Virus record (IMG/VR): IMGVR_UViG_3300020056_001723
Location: 1 to 26,227 of that record
DNA: 26,227 nt
Strand: one strand, 5' to 3'
Origin: a virus
Positions within the stretch are counted from its first letter, which is position 1; the number at the start of each line of letters is the position of its first letter. The notes under the pieces were generated by a model. It had not been told where the DNA came from. It saw only the letters and a program-made list of their open reading frames with translations, and did not search any database. The translations under genes were made by a program, and so were the position numbers. This document shows, piece after piece, positions 9,578 to 21,275 of this stretch.

Positions 9578-9882
9578 TTGTTCTTCTTTCTTAGTTTTTC
9601 TCGCAACGAGTCCATTTCACTACTGGTGTCCTTTTTCTCGTCCCTCTTTTCCACTTTAGTAGACTGTTCCCGCCGTAAGGAATGAATATAGTCTGTTTCA
9701 GTGAGTCCTTTTCTAAGTTCTGCAACTTTTCGTTTAATATCTTCTGTTCTTTCTTGAAGTCCATAGGCTGGTTCACTTCGTTGTTGCTCTAAAAATTCCG
9801 TCCCAATCTTCTGGGAGATCTTGCGTTGACATGAAATCACAACGTTCCATCCACATATCGTAATATCCATCCATTTTGCCAT
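9574..9882 (-). CDS. hypothetical charged coiled-coil protein, start uncertain
   Basis: The second half (about 36-102) is highly charged and helical (LQERTEDIKRKVAELRKGL, then a KLRKKNK end) and ends in ATGA with the Fe-S carrier. The frame has an ATG at 9880-9882 with AAAGGA 7 bases upstream, but that places 110 bases inside the cyclase gene in another frame. A GTG near 9838-9840 would shorten this. A third frame (9591-9776) is also open, but its codons end more often in G or C, so I prefer this one. Function unknown. Confidence 0.5.
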   Translation of the reverse strand: MAKWMDITICGWNVVISCQRKISQKIGTEFLEQQRSEPAYGLQERTEDIKRKVAELRKGLTETDYIHSLRREQSTKVEKRDEKKDTSSEMDSLREKLRKKNK

Positions 9883-11815
9883 CAAATTGTCCTTTCAATA
9901 ACTCGCACAGTTCTATTGCCTTATCGAACTGTTTCTTTCTATAAAACTTTAACATATTTCTGTGTACCAGTTTATACTTTGGCCAATCGGCCCTTTCATC
10001 GTCTAAAACTGTGTATATCGGCAAACCAATACTTTTTCCTTTTACCGCAAGGTCGTCTAATTTTAAATAAAAGAAATCTTCTTTAGTTCTTCTATATGTT
10101 TCTGGGCCAATAATCAACAGTACACCATATGCCTTACACTGTCCCTCTAATCGTGCGGTAGTAGAAACCGAATCACCAAGAACATCATAACTATATCTTT
10201 TAGTCGAACCCATCTCTCCAATATAACCAACACCAGTATTAATACCAGCACCCATACCAACTGGTGGTCTTCCATCGGCAACAAGTCTATCGTTAAACTT
10301 TTCAACCGCCTTTAACATTTCCAATCCTGTTCTTACAGATGTATGTGCGTGTGATTCATCATCAACTGGTGCGTTATGAATATGCATAGAAGCATCACCA
10401 ATATACTTAATTATCATTCCGTTATTTTTTAATACTGGCTCTGTAATTGCATCCATATATCCATTCATTATTTCCGTTAGTCCCTGCACATCATCACCAA
10501 AAGATTCTCCTAGCGGAGTGAATCCTCTCAAATCAGAAAAACATATACTGATCTCTCTTTTCGTACCTTTCTTTACAAGGTCTGGATTATTTTGTAATAA
10601 TTTTACTACAGCAGGCGATGCATATCCCTCAAATTGTTTCTTGATAGCCTGTTTCTGTAAGAACTCATCTAAAAATTTTGCAAGATATCTACTAAGTCCA
10701 ACCAATAGTAAAAATGCAGAAATGGTTGCACCATCAATGAGTAGATTTTCTGTTCTAAATGCATATATCGATCCACCAACAAAACCTACCATAGATACAA
10801 CATAAAATCCTAACCCTAGATATGTCCACTTTGATAATAATATGATAAGAAGTCCTGCAATCACTAATGCACTAATTTCTCCCCACGCCTTTGCGTCTGG
10901 ATGTCTTACTATATTAGATTCATTGAATACAGTTCCTAACATCGCTGCCTGTATTTCGTGTGGCCACACCCCACCTTTCGCAGTAGAAATTGGTTGTGTG
11001 GTTGATGATGCACTAACTCCGACAAATACAACCGCACCATCAAAATTATCTGGCAAATCTACAACACTCGCACTTCTGTATCCCTGCGACCAATCAATCC
11101 AAACTTCTCCCAATTCATTTGTTTGGATAGGCCCATATTGTGGTATTCTAAGTTTATCTACCCCTAATGGTGATAACTTAATTTGGAAGGATTTGTCGCC
11201 GGCAAGTACTCTCAATACTTCCATCGTCAAACTAGGATATAAGACACCACCAGACTCAAAAACTAGTGGAGCTCTTCGTGTAACACCATCAATTTCTGGA
11301 TAAGTATCAACTATCCCTGAACCAAGTGCATAAGTTTCAAGTAATTCAATATTAGATGTGATGCCAGATACACTTGGAATGAGATGCATAAACTCAGAAT
11401 TAATAATTCCAGCGCCAGGGTTGATCGGTTCATTTTTATTCTCCTCAGATCCTATAATACTCAGAATGACTGGATTTTCCATCATTGTTCTTGACAGAAC
11501 TTCGTCCTGCTCAAATCTATCATTTTCACTCATGAGTACATTAAACACAACTAATCCTGCACCTCTGTCGTACAGGTCTTTAATTATATCTGCATATATG
11601 TTTCTTGGAAATGGCCATTGTCCATATTGATTGATAGTTGCATCATCAATATTGACTGTGTAGATATTATTTTCTTGGATTGGTTGATTGACTATAAGAC
11701 TATCGAAGTATCTAAGTCTTAAACTTTCTAATAAATTTGGATTTGTATAGTATCCGTAAGTACATAAAAGAAGTATAATAATACTCCATATGGGAGACAG
11801 TAAGAGTTTTTTCAT
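9773..11815 (-). CDS. CHASE2 class III adenylate cyclase, membrane-bound
   Basis: 680 residues from the ATG at 11813-11815, which overlaps the stop of a tiny gene as ATGA. Order: an N-terminal membrane helix (about 5-22), an exported CHASE2 sensor domain (about 30-305), three membrane helices (about 313-375), a linker, and a cyclase domain (about 420-605). The cyclase has metal Asp428 (FSDLRGFT) and Asp474, Lys470 and Asp544, the adenine-selecting pair, and Arg555. The usual transition-state Asn is Ser551 (GDSVSTTARLE). It would make cAMP from ATP in response to a periplasmic signal, if the Ser permits. A C-terminal helical tail follows. Class III cyclases are very unusual in phages. Confidence 0.9.
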   Translation of the reverse strand: MKKLLLSPIWSIIILLLCTYGYYTNPNLLESLRLRYFDSLIVNQPIQENNIYTVNIDDATINQYGQWPFPRNIYADIIKDLYDRGAGLVVFNVLMSENDRFEQDEVLSRTMMENPVILSIIGSEENKNEPINPGAGIINSEFMHLIPSVSGITSNIELLETYALGSGIVDTYPEIDGVTRRAPLVFESGGVLYPSLTMEVLRVLAGDKSFQIKLSPLGVDKLRIPQYGPIQTNELGEVWIDWSQGYRSASVVDLPDNFDGAVVFVGVSASSTTQPISTAKGGVWPHEIQAAMLGTVFNESNIVRHPDAKAWGEISALVIAGLLIILLSKWTYLGLGFYVVSMVGFVGGSIYAFRTENLLIDGATISAFLLLVGLSRYLAKFLDEFLQKQAIKKQFEGYASPAVVKLLQNNPDLVKKGTKREISICFSDLRGFTPLGESFGDDVQGLTEIMNGYMDAITEPVLKNNGMIIKYIGDASMHIHNAPVDDESHAHTSVRTGLEMLKAVEKFNDRLVADGRPPVGMGAGINTGVGYIGEMGSTKRYSYDVLGDSVSTTARLEGQCKAYGVLLIIGPETYRRTKEDFFYLKLDDLAVKGKSIGLPIYTVLDDERADWPKYKLVHRNMLKFYRKKQFDKAIELCELLKGQFDGKMDGYYDMWMERCDFMSTQDLPEDWDGIFRATTK

Positions 11816-11916
11816 TCTGGTAATTCTCCATCCAATGACTTCCAAATAAACACATGCAGTGATGTGTTTACAATTATTAAAGTTACGAAAAATAAATATC
11901 CCGCTAAAGTCTCCAT
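11812..11916 (-). CDS. tiny membrane peptide coupled to the cyclase (34 aa)
   Basis: A 34-codon frame starting METLAGYLFFVTLIIVN. Residues about 5-25 form one membrane helix, with a short charged tail ending DGELPE. GAGG lies 5-6 bases before the ATG, and its TGA overlaps the cyclase ATG (ATGA). It is the first gene behind a perfect late octamer at 11936-11943. It may be a membrane partner of the cyclase or mainly a leader that delivers ribosomes to it. Confidence 0.65.
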   Translation of the reverse strand: METLAGYLFFVTLIIVNTSLHVFIWKSLDGELPE

Positions 11917-11935: not shown

Positions 11936-11943
11936 TATTTATA
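11936..11943 (-). promoter_or_regulatory. late promoter (TATAAATA)
   Basis: A perfect T4 late octamer on the minus strand, 20 bases before the tiny membrane gene and abutting the T-run of the terminator at 11944-11970. It starts the cyclase and Fe-S carrier unit. Confidence 0.85.
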
Positions 11944-11970
11944 AACAAAAACCCGCATTAAGCGGGTCTT
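11944..11970 (-). terminator. intrinsic terminator
   Basis: On the minus strand ACCCGC-TTAAT-GCGGGT is followed by TTTTGTTT. It lies just past the stop at 11975 and ends the short unit with the 56-residue membrane protein. Confidence 0.9.
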
Positions 11971-11974
11971 GTTT

Positions 11975-12145
11975 TTAGTTGTAACTCCAATAAATTATGA
12001 AGTAAGGAATAGCGAAAGGCAAAGTCATTAAACTCATCATTTGTAGTAATTCGCAGAATTTACACACTTGTTCATTCTGTTTCACTTCCTCAAACTTTGT
12101 ATCAATGATCTTCGCAGCCCGCTCGAACGCAACTGCTGTAGTCAT
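11975..12145 (-). CDS. small membrane-tail protein (56 aa)
   Basis: Starts MTTAVAFERAAKIIDTKFEE at the ATG at 12143-12145, with a perfect GGAGG 6 bases upstream. The N-terminal half is an amphipathic helix, two Cys (C28, C31: VCKFCELL) follow, and about 35-53 form a membrane helix. It has its own late octamer before it and a terminator after it, so it forms a single-gene late unit between the curli genes and the cyclase. No family recognised. Confidence 0.75.
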   Translation of the reverse strand: MTTAVAFERAAKIIDTKFEEVKQNEQVCKFCELLQMMSLMTLPFAIPYFIIYWSYN

Positions 12146-12196
12146 TATAGCCTCCAAGTATGAAATGATACATGTGATTGATATAATCACGAAACA

Positions 12197-12204
12197 TATT
12201 TATA
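12197..12204 (-). promoter_or_regulatory. late promoter (TATAAATA)
   Basis: A perfect T4 late octamer on the minus strand, 51 bases before the ATG of the 56-residue membrane protein and 13 bases past the stop of the second curlin-like gene. Confidence 0.85.
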
Positions 12205-12216
12205 AAAAAAATAACC

Positions 12217-12900
12217 TCAATTGTTTCCGTTTATAGTTACCGAGCATCCCGCCGAATTTGTACAATATCCTGTAACACTATAAGAGCCTGCAGATGAAGT
12301 TACATTTTGAGTCAAGTTTAAGGTATATGCACCACCAGAGTTAGTTAGATCTATTGCGGCTGTTGCACTTTGGCTGCCTCGTTGTTCAACATCTACTGTA
12401 TGGCCATCTCCAGTAAGTACAATATCTGTCCATTTCTGGCCACCATTCCCTCTTTGATATAGGTCTACTGTGTTACTGTCGCCCTGTATCTCTACAAAAC
12501 CATCGTGTCCAGCCTTACCCATTTGTATATGTTCTACTGTATTACTATCACCATTTACTATATTTGCTAAGTGGTGTGCTGCACCACCGCCACCACCTCT
12601 ATTGGTATCTGTTTGATAACTTGCAACTGTATTCCCATCACCAGTTACAGTCCAATATGCCTCATGCCCACCAGTTTCGTCACCATCATATGTGTTATCA
12701 TCGTGGATACCTTGCCGTATAGTAATGTCATTATTTGGCCCTGTAGAACTTAGATTAATATAGTTATTTTCACTGCGCTGTTGAATCTCCAAAGTGAGAT
12801 TGTCTCCACTTTGAGTAATATAGATTTCGTTACTACTGACTTTGGGTGATATCGATAGTGTTAGTACCAACACCAAGGCGGTAATCGTATACTGCTTCAT
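12217..12900 (-). CDS. curlin-repeat amyloid subunit 2, exported
   Basis: 227 residues. A signal peptide (about 1-23) leads into a mature start NEIYITQSGDN shared with the other curlin gene. Repeats of the curlin kind follow: GDGNTVASYQ, GDSNTVEHIQ, GDSNTVDLYQ and GDGHTVDVEQ, plus more divergent strands with TGPNND, a Gly-rich turn (GGGGGAAHH) and a C-terminal pair of cysteines (YCTNSAGC). Curlin strands stack as a beta-helix and polymerise on the cell surface after passage through CsgG. The ATG lies inside the FecR gene (68-base overlap), with GGAG upstream. Last gene of the operon. Whether it polymerises is not shown. Confidence 0.85.
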   Translation of the reverse strand: MKQYTITALVLVLTLSISPKVSSNEIYITQSGDNLTLEIQQRSENNYINLSSTGPNNDITIRQGIHDDNTYDGDETGGHEAYWTVTGDGNTVASYQTDTNRGGGGGAAHHLANIVNGDSNTVEHIQMGKAGHDGFVEIQGDSNTVDLYQRGNGGQKWTDIVLTGDGHTVDVEQRGSQSATAAIDLTNSGGAYTLNLTQNVTSSAGSYSVTGYCTNSAGCSVTINGNN

Positions 12901-13957
12901 CTCCCTGCTCCACGTTTATTGTGTATCCATTTTCTTGATGCAATTTCAAATCTAGTCTTTGAGTAACACCAGCATCTTCTCTTATAATTCTCCACATAGG
13001 ATTAATATCTTCTATAGTGATTCTTGTCGTTTCATCATACCCATAAACCCTTTGTGCAAAAAATTCTTCATTTTGTTTATCTAATTCATCTCTAAATATT
13101 TCCGCAAGTGCCAAATTTAACTGATCTAACATGTCGTGTAATAGTTCTTGTAGATAATAATTAGAATCGTGCAATTCAGTTACCCATATATTTTTAATAT
13201 CATCAGTTAATGCATCTTGATCTAAATCATCAAATTCAAGAAAATCTATATCCAGAAAATCAAACATTTTTCTGGCCTTCCTCATAATTTCTTGTTCTTC
13301 TTCCTCATAAGGTGACTTTTTTCTTAACATTAATAAATTATTAATATCGCCTTCAGATATATCTAGTGTAATTGGCGGTAATGGTTTCGACCACATACTC
13401 TTCACAATGGTAGATTGAAACGCCTGAGTCATTATAACAAACCCTGTATCAGTTTCAACCAAAATTTCACCAGTGACACAATAACCATCTATATCACAAC
13501 TTGGCAGTAATGTAATCATACTGCCGCCAATTTCATCAACAACCATAATAAAATCAGTACCCCTTACACTAATCTTTGCACTTGGAGTTCTGATATTAAC
13601 TCTTTGTCTACTGTTTGTGGCGATTTTACCACTTGCGTAACGAATAGTGCCTAATGTAGCCCTCAATCCAAGAGAACCAGTTCCACTATTGGGGTCATAA
13701 ACAAAATCATCTATTAATAGTCTGGTATGTTCTGTCAAATCTACTCTAGTATTATCAATGAAATCTATTCGCATCTTACCACTTTCAGTAACTGCGACAT
13801 CCATAGACTCAACACCTATGCCGTAATCACCAATAATAACATCAGTATCTCTTTCCAATACTCCACTTCCACTCAGGTCAGTTATAGTCCCTGCAGCACC
13901 ATATAGGTTATGTGGAAAACATAACACTAAGAGTAATAAGAAAATGTACCTAAACAT
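12833..13957 (-). CDS. FecR-domain exported protein with curlin-like C-terminus
   Basis: 374 residues. A signal peptide (about 1-20) is followed by a FecR domain (about 22-180): FIDNTRVDLTEHTRLLIDDF, then VNIRTPSAKISVRGTDF and a DEIGGSMITLLP strand. An acidic helical region (about 200-320) follows. The last 40 residues switch to strands ending GTNTIDITQSQ, very like the ITQSG and NTV-type curlin strands of its two neighbours. FecR domains of this kind sit in the periplasm or on the surface and are often encoded near CHASE2 cyclases in bacteria. Here it could anchor or nucleate the fibre. Start joined to curlin 1 by TGATG. Confidence 0.85.
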   Translation of the reverse strand: MFRYIFLLLLVLCFPHNLYGAAGTITDLSGSGVLERDTDVIIGDYGIGVESMDVAVTESGKMRIDFIDNTRVDLTEHTRLLIDDFVYDPNSGTGSLGLRATLGTIRYASGKIATNSRQRVNIRTPSAKISVRGTDFIMVVDEIGGSMITLLPSCDIDGYCVTGEILVETDTGFVIMTQAFQSTIVKSMWSKPLPPITLDISEGDINNLLMLRKKSPYEEEEQEIMRKARKMFDFLDIDFLEFDDLDQDALTDDIKNIWVTELHDSNYYLQELLHDMLDQLNLALAEIFRDELDKQNEEFFAQRVYGYDETTRITIEDINPMWRIIREDAGVTQRLDLKLHQENGYTINVEQGDEAVYDYRLGVGTNTIDITQSQ

Positions 13958-14691
13958 CAGTCTCGTTGTGTTATATTAACGTCTGCGTTATCACCAGAAA
14001 AAGTGGCGTCAATTAAGTTATCATAAATTCCTGATTGGGAAATTTTAAAATTTCCACCGCCACCAGTAATGTCTAGTGTAATACTGTGTCCGTTAATATC
14101 CCCATTTCCAGTTTGATCTATATCAATGTAGTTTCCTGGCGCACTTGTAGAAAGTCCTGTAGTTGCATGTGTGATTGTACCAGATGCAAGACTTGAAGAA
14201 GAATCAACTGTAACAGTGATATCTGCCTCTGTTCCGTCCTGTACTAAATCGATTACATTACCGTCACCAGTAATTGTGAAATCTGCAACTAAATTTTCTG
14301 CGTCATTGTTCTCGCCGATATACATCTGAAATTGGTTATCATCCCCAGTTGTCGTAATATCTAAAGTAACAGTTTCACAGTTTACACCCGAAGTAGTATC
14401 ACAAGTCAAGTCCACTGTATTTGTATCTCCAGTAAATACCCATGTTCCTGTATAAGTATTACCTTTAATTACAGCGTCAATTTCATTGAAATTGCCCGTT
14501 TGGGTAATATCAAATGTCATTGTATCGCCTTGCAATGTCATATCAGTAGTCGAATCACCAATTTTATTGTCTTGTCCATCTTGTACAATATCTAAGTCCA
14601 GATCATCGCCAGATTGTGTAATGTAGATTTCATTAGCGTATACTGGAATAGTGTACAGAAGTGCAAAAATTATTAGTATTTTTTTAAACAT
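13957..14691 (-). CDS. curlin-repeat amyloid subunit 1, exported
   Basis: 244 residues: a signal peptide (about 1-19, ending PVYA) and a mature start NEIYITQSGDD nearly identical to subunit 2. At least six strand units follow, such as ITQTGNFNEIDAVI, TGDTNTVDL, TGDDNQFQMYI, TGDGNVIDLVQ, IDQTGNGD and ISQSGIYDN, with a C-terminal NITQRD. Two Cys (CDTTSGVNC) may bridge. Strongly acidic, unlike E. coli CsgA. It lies directly after csgG with GAGG close to its ATG, the position of a main secreted substrate. Confidence 0.85.
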   Translation of the reverse strand: MFKKILIIFALLYTIPVYANEIYITQSGDDLDLDIVQDGQDNKIGDSTTDMTLQGDTMTFDITQTGNFNEIDAVIKGNTYTGTWVFTGDTNTVDLTCDTTSGVNCETVTLDITTTGDDNQFQMYIGENNDAENLVADFTITGDGNVIDLVQDGTEADITVTVDSSSSLASGTITHATTGLSTSAPGNYIDIDQTGNGDINGHSITLDITGGGGNFKISQSGIYDNLIDATFSGDNADVNITQRD

Positions 14692-14692
14692 A

Positions 14693-15511
14693 TTAGTCCT
14701 CTTGATTTAATTCCATTTTCCAGAGTTGTTTTCTTACTCCACCATAAACTAACTCGATCACGCCCTGTTCTATTGCTGCTCTGACAGCATAATTAACAGG
14801 TTCATTCGATGAAAAGCCGGTTTCAGTTTCTACGAGTTTTGTACCAAGATCTAAAAATTTAAATATATCTGCTCCACTTCGATAACTTGCAATGGTTTTA
14901 TCCGTTGCGATACTCATCAACACCTTACCTGTACTAACACTTACTAGTCGCATAACCACAGTAACAGTATCTATTCTATATTCTGTTTGTGCGCCAACTC
15001 CTAAGTATCTAGCGCCGACACCGCCTGTCGCCGTATTTGAATCATAACCAACCACTCCCCCCTCAAGGATAAGTCCTGCAAAAATCATAGGACTTAGTGG
15101 TTCTGGGCCTCCTGGCCGATTTTTGTCATAGACATCTCTTGTTTGTCTAATCAATTGTCTTTCTTTTATTAAATTGTCCATACCAACACGTTCTACAACT
15201 TCAAACCATGTACCATTACCTACATCTTGAAGTGCCTTTATAACCCAAACCTCTGATCCTTGAGTTACTGCAGAACTTAAACTTGCAATATTAGATGCAG
15301 ATTTTCTTTGTCCAGTCTTATCTAAAAACTGATAAACAGCAATCGTAATTTTTGGCCCATCAATTGGGGGAACCGCCGCAAGACGTTCCTTAATAGGACT
15401 CTCCTGTAGTTCTGGAGAAGTATTAACATCCCACAAAGTTTCAAGACTTTTTTGAGTTGCACATCCAGATAAAACTAAAAGAGAAAATATTAATGGTACT
15501 AATTTTATCAA
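14693..15511 (-). CDS. csgG: CsgG, outer-membrane curli secretion channel
   Basis: 272 residues (E. coli CsgG has 277). A lipobox LSGC gives lipidation at Cys17. The CsgG core follows: ITIAVYQFLDKTGQ, then EVVERVGMDNLIKERQLIR, GGVVGYDSNTATGGVGARYL, VSTGKVLMSIATDKTI and FSSNEPVNYAVRAAIEQGVI, all matching the family. Nine such subunits build a channel that exports unfolded curlin. The pore-loop segment (KSASNIASLSSAV, about 70-82) has no aromatic residue, unlike Tyr/Phe of the E. coli constriction. The start is TTG (15509-15511) overlapping the csgF stop, with GGGGAG 8 bases upstream. Confidence 0.95.
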   Translation of the reverse strand: MIKLVPLIFSLLVLSGCATQKSLETLWDVNTSPELQESPIKERLAAVPPIDGPKITIAVYQFLDKTGQRKSASNIASLSSAVTQGSEVWVIKALQDVGNGTWFEVVERVGMDNLIKERQLIRQTRDVYDKNRPGGPEPLSPMIFAGLILEGGVVGYDSNTATGGVGARYLGVGAQTEYRIDTVTVVMRLVSVSTGKVLMSIATDKTIASYRSGADIFKFLDLGTKLVETETGFSSNEPVNYAVRAAIEQGVIELVYGGVRKQLWKMELNQED

Positions 15512-15969
15512 AAACCAAACTCCCCTGTTGGAATTGTTATTTCAGTAACACTTCCATCTTCTTCAACGACAGTTAGTGTTATAGTACCAGCAATTGGATC
15601 CTTTACCCAAGTTATAGTAGAACCTTCGATATCGGCCGTCCCAGTATTAGAACATGTATCTCCACAATCAGCAAACATTGCATCTACCATCTGTTTAGAT
15701 AATGTTGCATAAATTCGAGATTCAATGTTTCTTAAAAACTTAGCAAGAGTTGTATTTTCAAGTTCTCTCTGAATTCTTGCCGCTTCTGCTTCTGCCTCTT
15801 TTCTTAAATCTTCTTTTCTGTTGTGTTGTAATTGTTCAACACTTAATACATGTGTCGAATAACCATTTCCATAATGGAAGGCGGGATTCTTAAATCCCCA
15901 AGTTAATTCTGAAGCATATAAATTACCGCTCAAAAATGTTAAACCTATTGTCATAAGTATTTTTTTCAT
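15508..15969 (-). CDS. csgF: CsgF, curli assembly factor
   Basis: 153 residues. A signal peptide (about 1-19) leads to ELTWGFKNPAFHYGNGYST, the family's mature start (E. coli has FQFRNPNF), which inserts into the CsgG pore. A helical neck (about 45-95) and a C-terminal beta domain follow (DPIAGTITLTVVEEDGSVTE). CsgF couples secretion to fibre nucleation outside the cell. One Cys pair (CGDTC) is unusual. AGAGG lies upstream of the ATG. The gene is joined to csgG through TTGA. Confidence 0.92.
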   Translation of the reverse strand: MKKILMTIGLTFLSGNLYASELTWGFKNPAFHYGNGYSTHVLSVEQLQHNRKEDLRKEAEAEAARIQRELENTTLAKFLRNIESRIYATLSKQMVDAMFADCGDTCSNTGTADIEGSTITWVKDPIAGTITLTVVEEDGSVTEITIPTGEFGF

Positions 15970-15979
15970 AAGTTTTCCT

Positions 15980-16273
15980 CTAGGAATTTTCTTTTCGTTT
16001 TTTTATAACTTCTTCTACTTCTTCATCAGATGGGACAACAACTCCCTTCTGTTGTAAAATCATATTTAACTTTGTATTCAATCTAATCAAATCATTATCT
16101 AACATTCTAACCCTATCGATTAGTGCTATCAGAGTCATATGTGATTCTTCAATAACAGGATCTACCTCTTCTGTTACCCAATGCCAGATATAGTATATGA
16201 AATAACCCAGTCCAAATGCGGCTATGATAGGAAATCCATATTGTCCTATTAATGATCCTAATTCTAAGTCCAT
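15980..16273 (-). CDS. membrane/coiled-coil protein, type A copy 2
   Basis: 97 residues: one membrane helix (about 12-30, GFPIIAAFGLGYFIYYIW), an acidic stretch, a coiled coil (about 45-75, IDRVRMLDNDLIRLNTKL) and a charged tail. It shares GFPI, DRV and a M-x-N-(D/E)-L-(L/I)-R core with the gene at 16657-16944, so the two are paralogues. The layout is like BhlA/UviB-type small phage membrane proteins, sometimes called holins. Its place directly before csgF suggests a membrane role in the late unit. Confidence 0.75.
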   Translation of the reverse strand: MDLELGSLIGQYGFPIIAAFGLGYFIYYIWHWVTEEVDPVIEESHMTLIALIDRVRMLDNDLIRLNTKLNMILQQKGVVVPSDEEVEEVIKKRKENS

Positions 16274-16274
16274 T

Positions 16275-16475
16275 TTACTCTCTATTTACACCGTCATCGC
16301 CAGAGATATGACATAACCAACCCTTTTCGTTCACACGAAAAAGGTCTCCAGGCTTATACAGAAAGTGTTCTTTCTCACTTCCGTCTGCATCTATTCCCAT
16401 GAGTTCACCTTCCCATTCGCCACGAACTTTAAAGTTCCTTCCAGCTTGCTCGATGACATATTCTAACCAAATCAT
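16275..16475 (-). CDS. small hypothetical protein, type B copy 2
   Basis: 66 residues starting MIWLEYVIEQAGRNFKVRGE. A short beta-rich protein whose core YKPGDLFRVNEKGWLCHIS lines up with the neighbouring copy's LQIGDLYQVGPNGYFEKIG. It is joined to that copy by ATGA. No known family. Confidence 0.7.
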   Translation of the reverse strand: MIWLEYVIEQAGRNFKVRGEWEGELMGIDADGSEKEHFLYKPGDLFRVNEKGWLCHISGDDGVNRE

Positions 16476-16657
16476 GTCGTAGTATCCTCTGCAACACTTC
16501 CAATTTTTTCAAAATAACCATTAGGCCCAACTTGATATAAATCACCAATCTGTAACTCAACATCATCAATAACAAAAAATTTATCGTCTGGATCTTTTGC
16601 CGATGTAATTCTAAATCCGTTTTTAAATTTCATTAATAGTAAGTCTTTCCAAAGCAT
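16472..16657 (-). CDS. small hypothetical protein, type B copy 1
   Basis: 61 residues starting MLWKDLLLMKFKNGFRITSA, a paralogue of the gene at 16275-16475 (shared GDL-(Y/F)-x-V and aromatic-x-x-I end). The ATG shares a base with the stop of the gene before (TAATG). It is probably a small beta domain; function unknown. Confidence 0.7.
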   Translation of the reverse strand: MLWKDLLLMKFKNGFRITSAKDPDDKFFVIDDVELQIGDLYQVGPNGYFEKIGSVAEDTTT

Positions 16658-16944
16658 TAATCTTTCCTCGCATCTGTTTGTCCATCCGCTCTTGCAATTC
16701 TATTAAGATCTGCAGGCAATAATGGAATGTTAAATGATCTACACATTAGTATATCAATTCGCAAGAGTTCATTATTCATGGTCTTCACTCTATTATCTAA
16801 AGATTGCACAAACCCTCTTTGTGTTTTGATATTATCCAAAACCCCAGCAAGAATAAATTTTAATGTTAAGAAAACGAAAAAACCTCCGGCAAGAGCAGAG
16901 GCAATCGGAAACCCGACATCGGCTACTAAAGATAAAAAGTCCAT
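16657..16944 (-). CDS. membrane/coiled-coil protein, type A copy 1
   Basis: 95 residues: a membrane segment (about 8-36, VGFPIASALAGGFFVFLTLK), then a coiled coil (about 48-66, LDNRVKTMNNELLRID) and a soluble tail. First gene of the late operon that contains csgF and csgG, 19 bases after a late octamer, with GAGAGG as ribosome site. It is paralogous to 15980-16273. Holin-like by layout only; it could equally help build or place the secretion channel. Confidence 0.75.
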   Translation of the reverse strand: MDFLSLVADVGFPIASALAGGFFVFLTLKFILAGVLDNIKTQRGFVQSLDNRVKTMNNELLRIDILMCRSFNIPLLPADLNRIARADGQTDARKD

Positions 16945-16963
16945 AAAAGAATCCTCTCACCTG

Positions 16964-16971
16964 TATTTATG
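16964..16971 (-). promoter_or_regulatory. late promoter of the curli operon (CATAAATA)
   Basis: CATAAATA on the minus strand, one base off the T4 late consensus and matching the NATAAATA form of marine relatives. It lies 19 bases before the first gene and 21 bases past a terminator, so the operon 16944-12217 appears to be a late unit of nine genes. Confidence 0.7.
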
Positions 16972-17216: not shown

Positions 17217-18524
17217 CTAATCTATGATGATTGGTCTATCCAATCTTTCTATTTCTCTAACAGTTGCAGCTGCGTCATTCCTATATTTATTGTCATCATT
17301 AATAAGAGATACATCATATCTCACTCTGTTAATTGCATATGCAGTATCCGTAATTTGTCGATTCCCTGCAATATCTTCTGGTATATTTCTAGATGCATCG
17401 CCAAGAATTTGTCCACAAGTAAGTAACGAATTACTATGAAAATTGTCCCAATATCCATAAGACATTATATCATCATGTTCTCCACACACATCATTCCACC
17501 CATGACCAAACTGTGGAAATATATAACCAGAGTTTGGAAATCCTTGATTTTCTGGGCCGTGGGCAAGTCCTATCGAATGTCCGATTTCGTGTAAATCGGT
17601 TTTCCATGTACAAGCTGCCATTGAAACAATAGGATACCCCTCATAAAATCTAGTGTTGGGATATGCAACACCGCAAGTGTTTACATATGTGGTTCCTGCA
17701 CCCAATACAATGTCTGTATTAACTTCTGTTGCAATTTTTTCTAAATTATATAATCCGTGATAATGGGCTATCCAAATTTCTTTGAGTACAAATCTAGCAA
17801 AGACGCCAGAATCTTCATACAGTTTGTTAAATTTTTCAACTCTTGTATTCCACTTCACCCACAATCTAGAAGGGTCGTCATTCGGGTCTATATTTGAAAT
17901 AAGGCCTGGTTCCATGTCATCACCCTCAATATGACGTTCATATTCAAAAATAGTTAATTCAAAATTAACAATAGATTCATCATCTTCACCATAAAAAATA
18001 AATCCTTCTTCTGGTGAATTTCTCGACACCGCATATCCAAGACAATCTACAAGACCTTCATGGGCACATCTTGGTTCATCTTCTATAGTGTAAAGGAATT
18101 CTTCATCATTTAAAATAATCGTACCTTCACCAATTCTTCCATCACCATAAATTAAAAGTGTATACTCATCGGGAGTTTCAACCCGCCCTATTGTTTCTTT
18201 TGTAGTTTCATACCACCAATCTAATATAATATCTTCTACTGGTTCACCAAACTGTTCATATGAAACTTCAACCACAACGGGGTTGAATCTATCACCAGTT
18301 GGCAAAGTCATTTTAAAAACGACAACTGGTTCCTCATAACCACAATCTTCTGATAACTTTTCTTCTACTACATAAGTTCCGCCCTTACCATCGTGGTATT
18401 CTTGAAACTTAGAGTAGTTTTGACACCAATAATCTGCAACTGGTGTCCCGGCTAGGGGATATGATTCCCCACTACTACATGCACTCAAAAAAAGTGCAAG
18501 TACTACAATATACAATCCTTTCAT
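17217..18524 (-). CDS. metzincin-type zinc metalloprotease, lipoprotein
   Basis: 435 residues. The lipobox LSAC places lipid on Cys16. A long Cys-containing N-terminal region precedes a zinc protease domain with HEIGHSIGLAH (H312, E313, H316, H322) and a Met-turn at M354 (DDIMSYGY), the two hallmarks of metzincins. Several cysteines (about C284, C305, C347, C370) suggest disulfides outside the cytoplasm. It would cut proteins at the cell envelope or on the surface. It sits in an operon with a lipase, so the pair looks like an envelope-attack set. The exact metzincin family is uncertain. Confidence 0.85.
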   Translation of the reverse strand: MKGLYIVVLALFLSACSSGESYPLAGTPVADYWCQNYSKFQEYHDGKGGTYVVEEKLSEDCGYEEPVVVFKMTLPTGDRFNPVVVEVSYEQFGEPVEDIILDWWYETTKETIGRVETPDEYTLLIYGDGRIGEGTIILNDEEFLYTIEDEPRCAHEGLVDCLGYAVSRNSPEEGFIFYGEDDESIVNFELTIFEYERHIEGDDMEPGLISNIDPNDDPSRLWVKWNTRVEKFNKLYEDSGVFARFVLKEIWIAHYHGLYNLEKIATEVNTDIVLGAGTTYVNTCGVAYPNTRFYEGYPIVSMAACTWKTDLHEIGHSIGLAHGPENQGFPNSGYIFPQFGHGWNDVCGEHDDIMSYGYWDNFHSNSLLTCGQILGDASRNIPEDIAGNRQITDTAYAINRVRYDVSLINDDNKYRNDAAATVREIERLDRPIIID

Positions 18525-18530
18525 ACAAAT

Positions 18531-18926
18531 TTATGTCCTAGTAATTAATTCAACAAGATTTAAAGCAACAGAAGTACCAGATATAGAACTACCTATCATA
18601 ATTGCCCTGTCGCCCCATTGCATTCCTACTACTACCCATCCTATACTTGCAACTACATATAAGATTTGTCCTACCATTTCAAAACCAGCACTCAGAGAAA
18701 AAATACCAAAAACTGCAAAGATAGTAGACATCCATTTAACATACCAGTCAAATGTGCCGACTGGTGTTGTTGGAGTAAGGTCGTCCACTTCACTTTGCAG
18801 TTGGGCAAGTTCTTCCCTAAGTCTTTTTCTTTCTTGAGAAAGTTCCATAGCGATTTTTCCCGCCTTGGACATTTGACTTTTTTCAAACTTTTCTTTAATG
18901 TCTGATGAAACATCCACATCACTCAT
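18531..18926 (-). CDS. coiled-coil membrane protein (131 aa)
   Basis: Starts MSDVDVSSDIKEKFEKSQMS at the ATG at 18924-18926, with AGGTGAG just upstream; a GTG three codons earlier has no site. Residues about 20-50 form a coiled coil (SQERKRLREELAQLQSEVDD), a TPTTPVG linker follows, then three hydrophobic stretches (about 66-125). No catalytic motif. The layout resembles small phage membrane proteins such as Rz-like or exclusion factors, without a clear match. Confidence 0.7.
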   Translation of the reverse strand: MSDVDVSSDIKEKFEKSQMSKAGKIAMELSQERKRLREELAQLQSEVDDLTPTTPVGTFDWYVKWMSTIFAVFGIFSLSAGFEMVGQILYVVASIGWVVVGMQWGDRAIMIGSSISGTSVALNLVELITRT

Positions 18927-18931
18927 AGAAC

Positions 18932-19210
18932 TCACCTGTTTTCTAATTTTTTAAGTCTTTCTTCCAGTTCGTCAATCTTGCCAGTCATTTTAGGATATCT
19001 TTTACGCCAGGCATCTGGTGGTTCTTGCAACCAAGTAATGTCCCACCTCTCCGCAAGATACGCCATAAAAGTATCGAACTTGGCGTATCCCCATAGTCCC
19101 ATACGAGTATCTTTGAACCACATTAAAAATGCAGCACCAAAAAGACTTCCTGCAATGCCTGTATAAATCCACAACCTATCGGTTGCCATCCTCTCTATCA
19201 TTTCCCACAT
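18932..19210 (-). CDS. single-helix membrane protein with coiled coil (92 aa)
   Basis: Starts MWEMIERMATDRLWIYTGIA. One membrane helix (about 13-32), an aromatic middle (WGYAKFDTFMAYLAERWDIT) and a C-terminal coiled coil (IDELEERLKKLENR). GGAG lies 7 bases before the ATG, and the start overlaps the previous gene by 35 bases. It looks like a phage membrane component; I cannot assign a role. Confidence 0.7.
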   Translation of the reverse strand: MWEMIERMATDRLWIYTGIAGSLFGAAFLMWFKDTRMGLWGYAKFDTFMAYLAERWDITWLQEPPDAWRKRYPKMTGKIDELEERLKKLENR

Positions 19211-19373
19211 TTGTATTCTCCAATATCTTTAGTACTTTGTCATATCCAGATATTTCGCCTAACAAATGTGATCTAATGTGATCTGGAATTGCCTTTACAA
19301 GGGTTTTACCATCTAATTTTTTGCGGTTAAGATCCCTCAATCTTTGTATATCTGCAATCATTTTTGCAGTCAC
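19176..19373 (-). CDS. hypothetical protein (65 aa), GTG start
   Basis: Starts at GTG (19371-19373), overlapping the lipase stop as GTGA, with GGAG 7 bases upstream. Basic and helical (IADIQRLRDLNRKKLDGKTL), with a GYDKVLKIL helix near the end. Such small proteins beside lytic enzymes are sometimes chaperones or regulators, but nothing here shows that. Confidence 0.65.
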   Translation of the reverse strand: MTAKMIADIQRLRDLNRKKLDGKTLVKAIPDHIRSHLLGEISGYDKVLKILENTNVGNDREDGNR

Positions 19374-20137
19374 GGTTTGTCTCCTATGGATTCTTTGAAC
19401 CCTTCCGTATATCTCATATAATATTTCATACCATGGTCATAAGCACCATCAAAAAATTGTCTTTTCTTTAGGGCAGCCCATCGTCCTCTCATCTGATCTT
19501 TAAATCTTTGCCATGGTGTCATTTTACGAATATTGCCATAAAAATTAATATAACACAACTCACCATGATGTTTATAAGTAAAGATTGCAGGCGGTACACT
19601 TGGTACTATATCATTATTGTTTACAACTCGAATATGATTTGAAATATTAGATTTGCAGTATTCACGATTGCCGACTCTTGGCGAACCAAATGTACATAAA
19701 CAAGTTACCGATGGTAATCTGCCGGCGACAATGGTGGCCATCGCACCACCTAATGAATGTCCAGTCACAAACAACTTTCTATTTTTTTGAAGTGTCTGAT
19801 TAAATCTCACATCTAAAACTTGTTGTTTTACCAATTCCCATAATTTGGAAACTTCTTTTTCAAATCCTAAATGAACTCTTCCTGCAAGAAGTGATTTCTT
19901 CGGCCATGCTTTAAGGTCTGCCTTGATATCATTGAATTGGTCTGGTTCTGTTCCCCTAAATGCGACAATAACATTATCCTCGTTCCAAACTACATATGCT
20001 TGGGCCCCCGAATTATCATAGTATCTTACATGCGGATATCCCATTTTATAAAACTTAGGGTCTGCTTCGTTTTTTGTTAAATATGCATAACTTGCCGCCT
20101 TGGCCATATCATGCACAGTTAATGTGTACTCATACAT
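19370..20137 (-). CDS. class 3 lipase (alpha/beta hydrolase)
   Basis: 255 residues from the ATG at 20135-20137, with GAGG 6 bases before it; a longer reading to 20170 lacks a site. Family marks are AFRGTEP (about 59-65, oxyanion region), the nucleophile elbow GHSLGGAMA with Ser128, Asp176 in NNNDIVPSVPP and His235 in DHGMKYY: a full Ser-Asp-His triad. It hydrolyses ester bonds in lipids. No signal peptide, so it acts in the cytoplasm or is released at lysis; attack on host membranes or lipid recycling is plausible. Overlaps guaC by 8 bases. Confidence 0.88.
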   Translation of the reverse strand: MYEYTLTVHDMAKAASYAYLTKNEADPKFYKMGYPHVRYYDNSGAQAYVVWNEDNVIVAFRGTEPDQFNDIKADLKAWPKKSLLAGRVHLGFEKEVSKLWELVKQQVLDVRFNQTLQKNRKLFVTGHSLGGAMATIVAGRLPSVTCLCTFGSPRVGNREYCKSNISNHIRVVNNNDIVPSVPPAIFTYKHHGELCYINFYGNIRKMTPWQRFKDQMRGRWAALKKRQFFDGAYDHGMKYYMRYTEGFKESIGDKP

Positions 20138-21275
20138 TTTTTGCCTCGTATACTCTATTATGTGTATCATTACACAAAATAAAAGTTGTACATTTACTTA
20201 GTCTTTTCAACTTATCTGCGCCAACATAAGTACATGCTGATCGCATTCCGCCAAGAATATCTTGAACAGTAGATGCAACAGTACCCCTGTATGGAACGAG
20301 TACTTCTCTACCCTCACTTGCACGATAGTCTTTCAGTCCACCAAAGTGTTTTGTGTTTGCTGCATCTGAACTCATTCCATAAAACTTCACAAATTTTTTC
20401 ACTTCTACTTTGCGTGTACGGTTATCTAAATGATCGCCTACTTCATATACAACTTCGTTTGTCTCGTAATATTTATTTATAACCTCTCCACCACCCTCAA
20501 TATGTCCAGCGAGCATACCGCCAAGCATTACAAAGTCTGCACCAGCAGCAAATGCCTTTACAACATCACCAGCTGTCGTACACCCACCATCAGCAATAAT
20601 ATGCCCGCCAAGGCCATGAGCGGCATCAGCACATTCGATAACAGCGGAGAGTTGAGGATAACCGACTCCAGTTTTAATACGAGTAGTACACACACTGCCA
20701 GGGCCAATACCCACTTTAACAATATCTGCTCCATTTAAGATTAACTCCTGTGTCTGATCTGCAGTAACAACATTTCCTGCAATAATTACAATTCTTGGAT
20801 AGTTTTGACGAAACAGTTTTACAAACTCTACAAATCTTTCCGTATATCCATTTGCAACATCAATACAGACATATTTTAAAAGTGTACCGACTTGTTCATA
20901 AACATTACGAAACTTCATTTCGTCTGCATCTGTTATTCCAATAGACATGGCAACACATTCAGTTCTTTCTTGCATGTCGTTATCAAAATAAGAAACAAGT
21001 TCATTCACTGTATATGTTTTAACGAGACATGTAAAAAGGCCACCCTCTGCGAGTTTGTCTGCCATGTCAAAAGTACCCACCCCATCCATATTTGCAGCCA
21101 TGATGGGCACACCTTCGTAATGCACATCACTTACATTATCTGGGAAATCTGCAGAATAGTTTCTATATGTAAACCTTCGTGCAAGGTCAACTTCCCTTCT
21201 AGAAGTTAGTGTACTTCTTTTGGGGCGAATGAGGACATTGTTGTAATCCAGTTTTACTTCACTGTCGATTCTCAT
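20130..21275 (-). CDS. guaC: GMP reductase
   Basis: 381 residues, slightly longer than E. coli GuaC (347). IMPDH/GMPR barrel: PIMAANMDGVGTFDMA, the catalytic loop KVGIGPGSVCTTRIKTGVGYPQLSA with Cys196 and Thr198, the IADGGCTTAGDVVKA phosphate site, and FYGMSS with YRASEGREV later. It lacks the CBS domains of IMP dehydrogenase, and the loop fits GMP reductase, which makes IMP from GMP with NADPH. In infection it would move guanine nucleotides toward IMP and adenine nucleotides, fitting an AT-rich genome. Coupled by ATGA to the gene before it and by overlap to the lipase. Confidence 0.9.
   Translation of the reverse strand: MRIDSEVKLDYNNVLIRPKRSTLTSRREVDLARRFTYRNYSADFPDNVSDVHYEGVPIMAANMDGVGTFDMADKLAEGGLFTCLVKTYTVNELVSYFDNDMQERTECVAMSIGITDADEMKFRNVYEQVGTLLKYVCIDVANGYTERFVEFVKLFRQNYPRIVIIAGNVVTADQTQELILNGADIVKVGIGPGSVCTTRIKTGVGYPQLSAVIECADAAHGLGGHIIADGGCTTAGDVVKAFAAGADFVMLGGMLAGHIEGGGEVINKYYETNEVVYEVGDHLDNRTRKVEVKKFVKFYGMSSDAANTKHFGGLKDYRASEGREVLVPYRGTVASTVQDILGGMRSACTYVGADKLKRLSKCTTFILCNDTHNRVYEAKNV

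Follow-up and report, generated by a model that had tools for sequence, protein, structure and literature searches.

A late-controlled curli-type operon in a marine T4-like phage that may let the infected cell display curlin fibres around lysis

A 26,227-nucleotide fragment of a marine T4-like phage (the whole stretch analysed, hereafter the window) carries csgF, csgG, genes for two exported curlin-repeat proteins (cur1 and cur2) and a FecR-domain protein gene (fecR) as one tight, contiguous operon on the minus strand. Computation established the identities of these genes, their order, the late motifs that accompany them and their linkages to neighbouring genes. We put at slightly better than even (a probability of about 0.55) the reading that this is a late operon through which the infected cell displays curlin fibres around lysis.

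Secretion, fibre formation, signalling, coupling to lysis and a benefit to the phage are what we infer from these data. Late transcription would give the infected cell a reduced curli (type VIII) secretion system, with the operon products exported by Sec, lipoprotein-anchored CsgG acting as the outer-membrane channel and CsgF as its cap. Both curlin-repeat proteins would cross CsgG and then, at lysis or just ahead of it, form surface fibres on a host that itself lacks curli. A core or nucleating role may fall to the conserved, constant-length cur1, with the fast-evolving, variable-length cur2 as the exposed subunit. The exported FecR protein could be the periplasmic partner of the CHASE2 sensor of a cyclase, as in bacterial chromosomal pairs, and together they may report envelope or fibre state as cAMP, with a holin-like pair at the operon head (tmA1 and tmA2) coupling the operon to the lysis programme. 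Most likely, the phage would benefit because debris, daughter cells and progeny are held together, or because the cell is shielded against rival phages.

Gene content and order of the operon

The first-pass annotation had recognised csgF, csgG, a pair of curlin-repeat proteins and a FecR-domain protein in a gapless arrangement. Pfam searches bear out these assignments (Table 1), and neighbouring genes overlap (csgF/csgG, cur1/fecR and fecR/cur2) or sit 1 nt apart (csgG/cur1). Two corrections apply: four small genes, and not csgF, stand at the head of the unit, and the functional cluster extends beyond the limit given at 12217 to a CHASE2 adenylate cyclase. Our comparative set comprised about 165 viral loci. 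The order csgF-csgG-curlin-FecR-curlin-cyclase seen in the window (gene map and synteny) recurs in almost all of 80 viral loci as csgF-csgG-cur1-fecR-cur2-cyclase, and synteny identifies the CHASE2 cyclase as a constant module member. Scanning the window with Rfam and for tRNAs returned no matches.

Table 1. Features of the curli-type region, listed in the direction of transcription
Feature	Coordinates	Strand	Description
T4-type late octamer CATAAATA	16964..16971	-	20 nt upstream of first gene tmA1
tmA1, 95 aa	16657..16944	-	one TM segment with GFPI motif, coiled coil; phrog_18771
sh3B1, 61 aa	16472..16657	-	small protein, often accompanies tmA pair (synteny)
sh3B2, 66 aa	16275..16475	-	small protein, often accompanies tmA pair (synteny)
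tmA2, 97 aa	15980..16273	-	one TM segment with GFPI motif, coiled coil; phrog_18771
csgF, curlin-channel accessory	15508..15969	-	Pfam CsgF (PF10614) E 9e-12; signal-peptide-like N-terminus
csgG, outer-membrane curlin channel lipoprotein	14693..15511	-	Pfam CsgG (PF03783) E 6e-49; lipobox Cys17
cur1, conserved exported curlin-repeat protein	13957..14691	-	Pfam Curlin_rpt E 2e-5
fecR, FecR-domain protein	12833..13957	-	Pfam FecR E 3e-8; signal-peptide-like N-terminus, helical linker, beta C-terminal tail
cur2, fast-evolving exported curlin-repeat protein	12217..12900	-	Pfam Curlin_rpt E 4e-8, 3 stretches
Late octamer TATAAATA	12197..12204	-	precedes 71-aa ORF (11975-12190), start of second unit
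Intrinsic-terminator-like hairpin	11948..11970	-	end of second unit (71-aa ORF)
Late octamer TATAAATA	11936..11943	-	precedes cyclase unit
34-aa hydrophobic leader ORF	11812..11916	-	overlaps cyclase start (ATGA)
CHASE2-domain class III adenylate/guanylate cyclase, 680 aa from ATG	9773..11815	-	Pfam CHASE2 E 1.5e-34, Guanylate_cyc E 9e-17

The late octamer tracks the first gene

A late octamer had been reported at the start of the unit, and the motif is indeed present; CATAAATA differs from TATAAATA by one base. Octamers in the window alone do not exceed chance (about 1.2 expected per strand), so we used comparative promoter data, and the significance of the motif comes from that cross-locus comparison. 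Among non-redundant loci, the late motif precedes tmA1 in 9 of the 10 that open with tmA1. It is found at csgF in 26 of 34 loci with csgF first, compared with 1 of 12 in which csgF is not first, and never upstream of csgG or fecR. Across the 48 non-redundant loci compared, its occurrence at the first gene lies far above shuffles. Whatever gene stands first in the operon, the T4 late octamer lies ahead of it; in loci with a changed arrangement, the promoter has moved to the new first gene. By following the first gene from locus to locus, the motif gives late control of the curli unit much better support than before. That the curli set is switched on late as an operon, as these promoter motifs suggest, is new relative to published descriptions.

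A holin-like pair travels with the curli module

The small membrane proteins tmA1 and tmA2 are paralogous (hhalign probability 98). Weak matches to the holin family phrog_4898 were obtained in 8 of 12 tmA1 relatives (best E 2.5e-4) and 11 of 15 tmA2 relatives (best E 8.5e-5). The curli module accompanies the pair in 68 of 80 loci gathered by tmA1 alone, and this joint travel is a new observation. A class-level genome search, run without a positive control, did not find tmA in 289 alphaproteobacteria.

The pair occupies the position, before csgF, at which PMC9599517 places one or more histidine kinases. The tmA pair of the window has no kinase domain, Pfam finding none in tmA2, and an HTVC023P-type podophage contig (L264) likewise has a tmA pair without a kinase domain before csgF. 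The published 'histidine kinase' is probably the tmA pair, and the label, which pointed to regulation, probably needs correction.

Channel and substrate proteins

E. coli CsgG structures match the window CsgG at 171 bits. At the constriction, the phage consensus reads KPxDxIANLSSAV, compared with KPYPASNFSTAV in E. coli; the set Y51, N55 and F56 is not preserved, aromatic Y51 and F56 being replaced in phage CsgG. These constriction residues characterise the E. coli pore and are not shared by every family member. The absence of csgE, also claimed earlier, was confirmed by HMM search of the window and ten other phage records, with E. coli as a positive control. The literature (PMC7029224) describes CsgE as helpful, not essential.

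Both curlin-repeat proteins exceed the Pfam cut-off. Only the N-terminal repeat of cur1 scores, and 15 of 25 cur1 relatives match at E ≤ 0.01. Signal peptides of the curlins were assigned by eye; on inspection, the mature proteins start directly with the repeat and have no obvious N-terminal leader like the E. coli N22. cur2 diverges faster than the other module genes (mean pairwise identity 0.37 versus 0.54 for cur1) and varies in length, whereas cur1 is constant. The AF2 model of cur1 is all-beta, predicted with good confidence (pLDDT 80, pTM 0.79), and Foldseek retrieved nothing significant for it among solved structures.

FecR protein and CHASE2 cyclase

In the FecR protein, the FecR domain comes directly after a signal-peptide-like stretch; a cytoplasmic N-terminal anti-sigma part before a membrane span is absent. 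Judged from its sequence, this 'FecR regulator' looks exported and devoid of an anti-sigma part. Its AF2 model matches anti-sigma periplasmic domains in Foldseek (E 1e-4), and its C-terminal tail is conserved in 39 phages. Within the cyclase catalytic motifs, Ser replaces the usual transition-state Asn, which makes cyclase activity uncertain. FecR and CHASE2-cyclase genes adjoin in many bacterial chromosomes, including those of SAR11, without curli. The Burkholderia BiofilmReg operon (PMC5192318) similarly places an exported FecR protein beside a CHASE2 sensor and is tied to biofilm control, loss of its response regulator abolishing biofilm. It differs in having a kinase rather than a cyclase, a LysM domain in the FecR protein and no curli genes.

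Hosts and previously described systems

CsgG was absent from three SAR11 genomes tested. Among 197 SAR11-family genomes there were two CsgG matches, both on contigs with the whole phage module; one contig carries podophage terminase and connector genes, and the other has two short matches to a podophage. Chromosomal alphaproteobacterial csgFG/curlin loci lack FecR, the cyclase and tmA. In the podophage record MW574966, no curli cluster is annotated in the first 50 kb.

The first-pass annotation had suggested that a phage-borne channel-plus-substrate set under late control would be a distinct system. The set and its late control are supported, but not its novelty as a separate system, because pelagimyophage, Melnitz and pelagipodophage sets have been published. 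Reports exist of csgFG in pelagimyophages (2020, PMC7029224) and of csgGF in the OM43 phage Melnitz (2022, PMC9004378); PMC9599517 (2022) describes the complete csgF-csgG-csgA/B-FecR-csgA/B-cyclase set for podo- and myophages and adds seawater transcripts of curli genes from phages. Proposals of aggregation ('sibling capture') and of superinfection defence likewise predate this work. The pelagiphage T8SS cluster of PMC9599517 has identical genes in identical order, in marine podo- and myophages of a curli-less host; in the accessible part of that paper there is no description of a late promoter, of the CHASE2 domain or of how the FecR protein is built.

At the DNA level, Melnitz (MZ577097) comes nearest among the isolates, being 68% identical across one third of the region. 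Its GenBank record holds the gene set of the window, including two curlin proteins, FecR and the cyclase, whereas the text of the paper counts only csgGF (PMC9004378). The HTVC008M/pelagimyophage operon has csgF, csgG, a curlin, a FecR-like gene and a cyclase in order (PMC7029224), with a CsgG 49% identical to that of the window; in the available text of that paper, FecR and the second curlin are hypothetical, and a late promoter and a lysis link are not described. With the E. coli csg operons the window shares the CsgG and CsgF families, curlin repeats and Sec export; it differs in lacking CsgE, in its altered constriction residues and in adding FecR, the CHASE2 cyclase and the tmA pair.

Alternative readings and significance

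Fibre display is supported by the gene identities, their conserved order, the late octamer at the first gene, the ocean transcripts, curli-less SAR11, the FecR-CHASE2 pairs, the tmA linkage and cur2 divergence. We count against it the missing CsgE, the lack of an N22-like leader, the non-conserved Y51 and F56, the cur1 Foldseek result, the cyclase Ser and the report that clumping was not observed in Melnitz-infected cultures (PMC9004378). A more ambitious version, which we offer only tentatively, is a lysis-coupled surface-amyloid cassette that unites the holin-like pair, channel and fibres, and a FecR-CHASE2 cAMP sensor in one late programme; if true, amyloid would be deposited on the host envelope exactly as the cell is about to open and would keep virions and neighbours in place in dilute seawater. 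Equally tentative is a module that primarily times lysis, with tmA as holin/antiholin, CsgG/CsgF perforating the outer membrane, curlins serving as plug or cargo and not as fibres outside the cell, and FecR and the CHASE2 cyclase sensing the envelope. Paralogous one-TM proteins are frequent in holin/antiholin pairs, and the phrog_4898 matches point the same way. Endolysin or spanin genes adjoin the tmA pair in three loci (L115, L161 and L264), in the orders endolysin-Rz-Rz1-tmA1 (L115) and tmA-curli-Rz-Rz1-lysozyme (L264), and SleB hydrolase, endolysin or lipase genes lie nearby in others. The Melnitz paper, which reports one lysin-like gene only, proposes that CsgGF forms a pinholin-like pore (PMC9004378). 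However, holins are inner-membrane proteins, whereas CsgG has a lipobox and belongs to an outer-membrane family; two exported curlin proteins with conserved repeats are left unexplained; and no spanin or endolysin was recognised within 10 kb in most T4-like loci.

It is unlikely that the infected cell uses the channel to take up nutrients or cofactors, with an iron-related regulatory role for FecR and the curlins left as remnants, as already proposed in PMC7029224 and PMC9599517. The lack of a CsgE gate would allow an ungated channel, but the curlin genes are in order and repeat-bearing in most loci, FecR looks exported without an anti-sigma part, and late timing just before lysis fits uptake poorly. 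Least probable by far, and already disfavoured, is a horizontally acquired, hitchhiking cluster with no function in infection: frames and order are intact across very divergent phages of two morphotypes, the promoter is re-placed upon rearrangement, and oceanic transcripts are documented in PMC9599517.

Curli-bearing SAR11 and OM43 phages are ocean-wide, and late timing together with a constant holin-like partner narrows the question to what happens near lysis. Should the amyloid be real, phages would be equipping planktonic bacteria with surface fibres that these do not make themselves, with effects on aggregation, virus encounter rates and the sinking of dissolved and particulate matter. The cultured representatives HTVC008M and Melnitz make the operon directly testable.

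The FecR C-terminal tail

By eye the FecR tail looks attractive as a curlin repeat, but we rejected that assignment: Pfam reaches at best E 0.04, in only 2 of 39 tails; profile-profile alignment is insignificant (probability ≤7%); an unrelated Eap/MAP domain scores equally (E 0.006); and a curlin-type regular expression matches only 7 of 128 tails. Also set aside was a weak match of the FecR model to the 'cell surface anchoring domain' of PDB 5ix9 (E 0.013), for which no literature was found. A tail HMM scored a mean of 2.7 bits on curlins, compared with 0.4 on reversed and -2.6 on shuffled sequences, and its best non-FecR matches were all cur2 (best E 0.0034), a resemblance to the curlin repeat that is suggestive only.

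Conservation of the phage curli module

The window record, 26,227 bases long, has T4-like marine phages as relatives; the nearest isolates are Pelagibacter phage HTVC008M and Methylophilales phage Melnitz, the latter at 68% DNA identity across one third of the region. Its minus strand carries, in transcription order, tmA1, two small open reading frames (ORFs), tmA2, csgF, csgG, cur1, fecR, cur2, a 71-aa ORF and a CHASE2-domain cyclase gene; cur1 and cur2 encode exported curlin-repeat proteins. The first-pass annotation had proposed a phage curli-like secretion operon under a late promoter. This operon belongs to an already known kind of phage cluster, because papers from 2020 and 2022 describe such clusters. 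Pelagimyophage csgFG operons appeared in 2020 together with a 'sibling capture' proposal (PMC7029224), and in 2022 the full set (csgF, csgG, csgA/B, FecR and adenylate cyclase) was reported from podophages and myophages, present at 65/65 ocean stations analysed and transcribed (PMC9599517). The 2022 Melnitz paper proposed a pinholin-like role and described cultures without visible clumping (PMC9004378).

Positions and Pfam matches of window features
Feature	Position	Strand	Details
CHASE2-domain cyclase	9773-11815	-	CHASE2 domain, E 1.5e-34; cyclase domain, E 9e-17
34-aa hydrophobic leader ORF	11812-11916	-	after TATAAATA octamer; overlaps cyclase start codon (ATGA)
CsgG			E 6e-49
CsgF			E 9e-12
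FecR domain			E 3e-8
Curlin repeats, both genes flanking fecR			E 4e-8 and 2e-5
Late octamer	16964-16971	-	before tmA1
Metalloprotease-like lipoprotein, two small membrane proteins, class 3 lipase	17217-20170	-	ahead of the curli unit

Using a CsgG scan, we collected 80 viral loci, nearly all of which retain the csgF-csgG-cur1-fecR-cur2-cyclase order within contig reach. The tmA pair occupies one of two places: immediately upstream of the module and in the same orientation, which is the window's arrangement, or downstream of the cyclase gene and oppositely oriented. Five inspected chromosomal alphaproteobacterial csgFG loci contained curlins; FecR, cyclase and tmA were absent from them. The lipase and a 92-aa membrane protein from the region ahead of the window's operon also occur near the module in other phages. 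Contigs with all or much of the module (L166-L170, L175, L264, L265) are filed under bacterial genomes labelled Rhodobacteraceae, Pirellulales, Flavobacteriaceae, Pelagibacter and SAR11-family; these are phage contigs binned into bacterial genomes.

The late motif tracks the first gene

Octamers within the window alone were no more frequent than chance. We sought NATAAATA within 100 nt upstream of start codons in 48 non-redundant loci and compared the counts with shuffles. In counts inflated by the shared ancestry of the loci, the motif preceded tmA1 in 9 of 10 loci with the tmA pair upstream (shuffle mean 0.5) and csgF in 26 of 34 loci with csgF first (shuffle mean 2.4, maximum 6), while only 1 of 12 loci with tmA upstream carried it before csgF. 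Among non-redundant loci, it was found upstream of neither csgG (0/47) nor fecR (0/45), and its positions were concentrated 20-30 nt ahead of the start codon. Late transcription of the unit as a whole finds its strongest support in the way the motif moves with whichever gene comes first when the order is rearranged, a switch that shared ancestry leaves unexplained. Gene identities, order, late motifs and linkage were established computationally.

The tmA pair and the published kinases

Searching with tmA1 alone, we found at least one other module gene in 68 of the best 80 loci; in 7 the sequence ends within 1 kb, and in 5 (L101, L115, L128, L132, L163) sequence is available and the module is absent. 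The pair can occur apart from the module, since L128 and L132 carry it with no curli gene in 3.6 and 10 kb of downstream sequence, respectively. tmA1 and tmA2 are paralogous (hhalign probability 98) and mostly 80-125 aa long; by inspection, they have one membrane segment and a coiled coil. No member searched matched a kinase domain; weak matches to phrog_4898 'holin' were obtained for 8/12 tmA1 and 11/15 tmA2 members, with E values of 2.5e-4 and 8.5e-5 at best. The podophage and myophage study places a 'histidine kinase' ahead of csgF, in podophages 'always' and 'sometimes two' (PMC9599517). Judged by position, these podophage kinases are probably the tmA pair.

In contig L264, the terminase shares 61% identity and the connector 49% with an HTVC023P-type podophage; this contig has the pair immediately ahead of csgF and Rz, Rz1, nuclease and lysozyme genes after the module. 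Locus L115 reads endolysin, Rz, Rz1, tmA1, with no curli genes within reach, and other loci have SleB-type hydrolases, endolysins or a lipase nearby. The tmA pair may couple the operon to lysis.

FecR, cyclase and curlins

In 39 phages, the FecR protein runs from a signal-peptide-like stretch through the FecR domain and a helical segment to a conserved beta tail. A structural search with the domain model matched it to periplasmic domains from anti-sigma regulators (E 1e-4); the phage protein has no cytoplasmic anti-sigma part. FecR genes lie near CHASE2 cyclases in several bacterial phyla and on SAR11 chromosomes, with no phage-type curli genes near these loci. On SAR11 chromosomes L201-L205, L208, L182, L188 and L238, CHASE2-cyclase, TPR-like and FecR-domain genes stand in a row, distant kin of the phage pair. 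Because bacterial FecR-CHASE2 pairs occur without curli and a FecR/CHASE2-kinase operon controls Burkholderia biofilm (PMC5192318), the phage combination looks like a bacterial pair for envelope sensing that has been combined with a curli channel, and FecR and CHASE2 would signal together.

The cyclase most likely starts at ATG 11815, giving 680 aa as in relatives. Its metal-binding motifs are retained, and its motif LGDSVSTTARLE has Ser in place of the usual transition-state Asn of class III cyclases, a change shared by most phage CHASE2 cyclases, which may have altered activity or substrate.

Mean pairwise identity is 0.54 for cur1, which is conserved and stable in length, 0.37 for cur2, which is variable (ORFs of 112 to 484 aa, some clipped by contig ends), and 0.66 for csgG. 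The divergence of cur2 is as expected of a putative exposed variable subunit. The predicted cur1 model is confidently all-beta, and a structural search with it gave no significant match. The curlins would form surface fibres near lysis, with a possible benefit via retention or shielding.

The CsgG channel

Window CsgG aligned to solved E. coli CsgG across almost all of its own length (171 bits), and the lipobox cysteine is invariant; products would be exported through CsgG/CsgF. The phage pore may handle cargo differently, as constriction residues Tyr51 and Phe56 of E. coli are missing from the aligned phage proteins, except for one Phe in locus L082. CsgE was found neither in the window nor in 10 other phage records by a search that did recover it from the E. 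coli control. In Brevundimonas jumbo phages, including Kabachok (L004), a distant CsgG-like gene (27-29% identity) stands alone, with no recognised csgF or curlins nearby. The unannotated 1.5-kb 'Salmonella phage' record OR851715.1 encodes a CsgG 42% identical to that of the window and may be host DNA.
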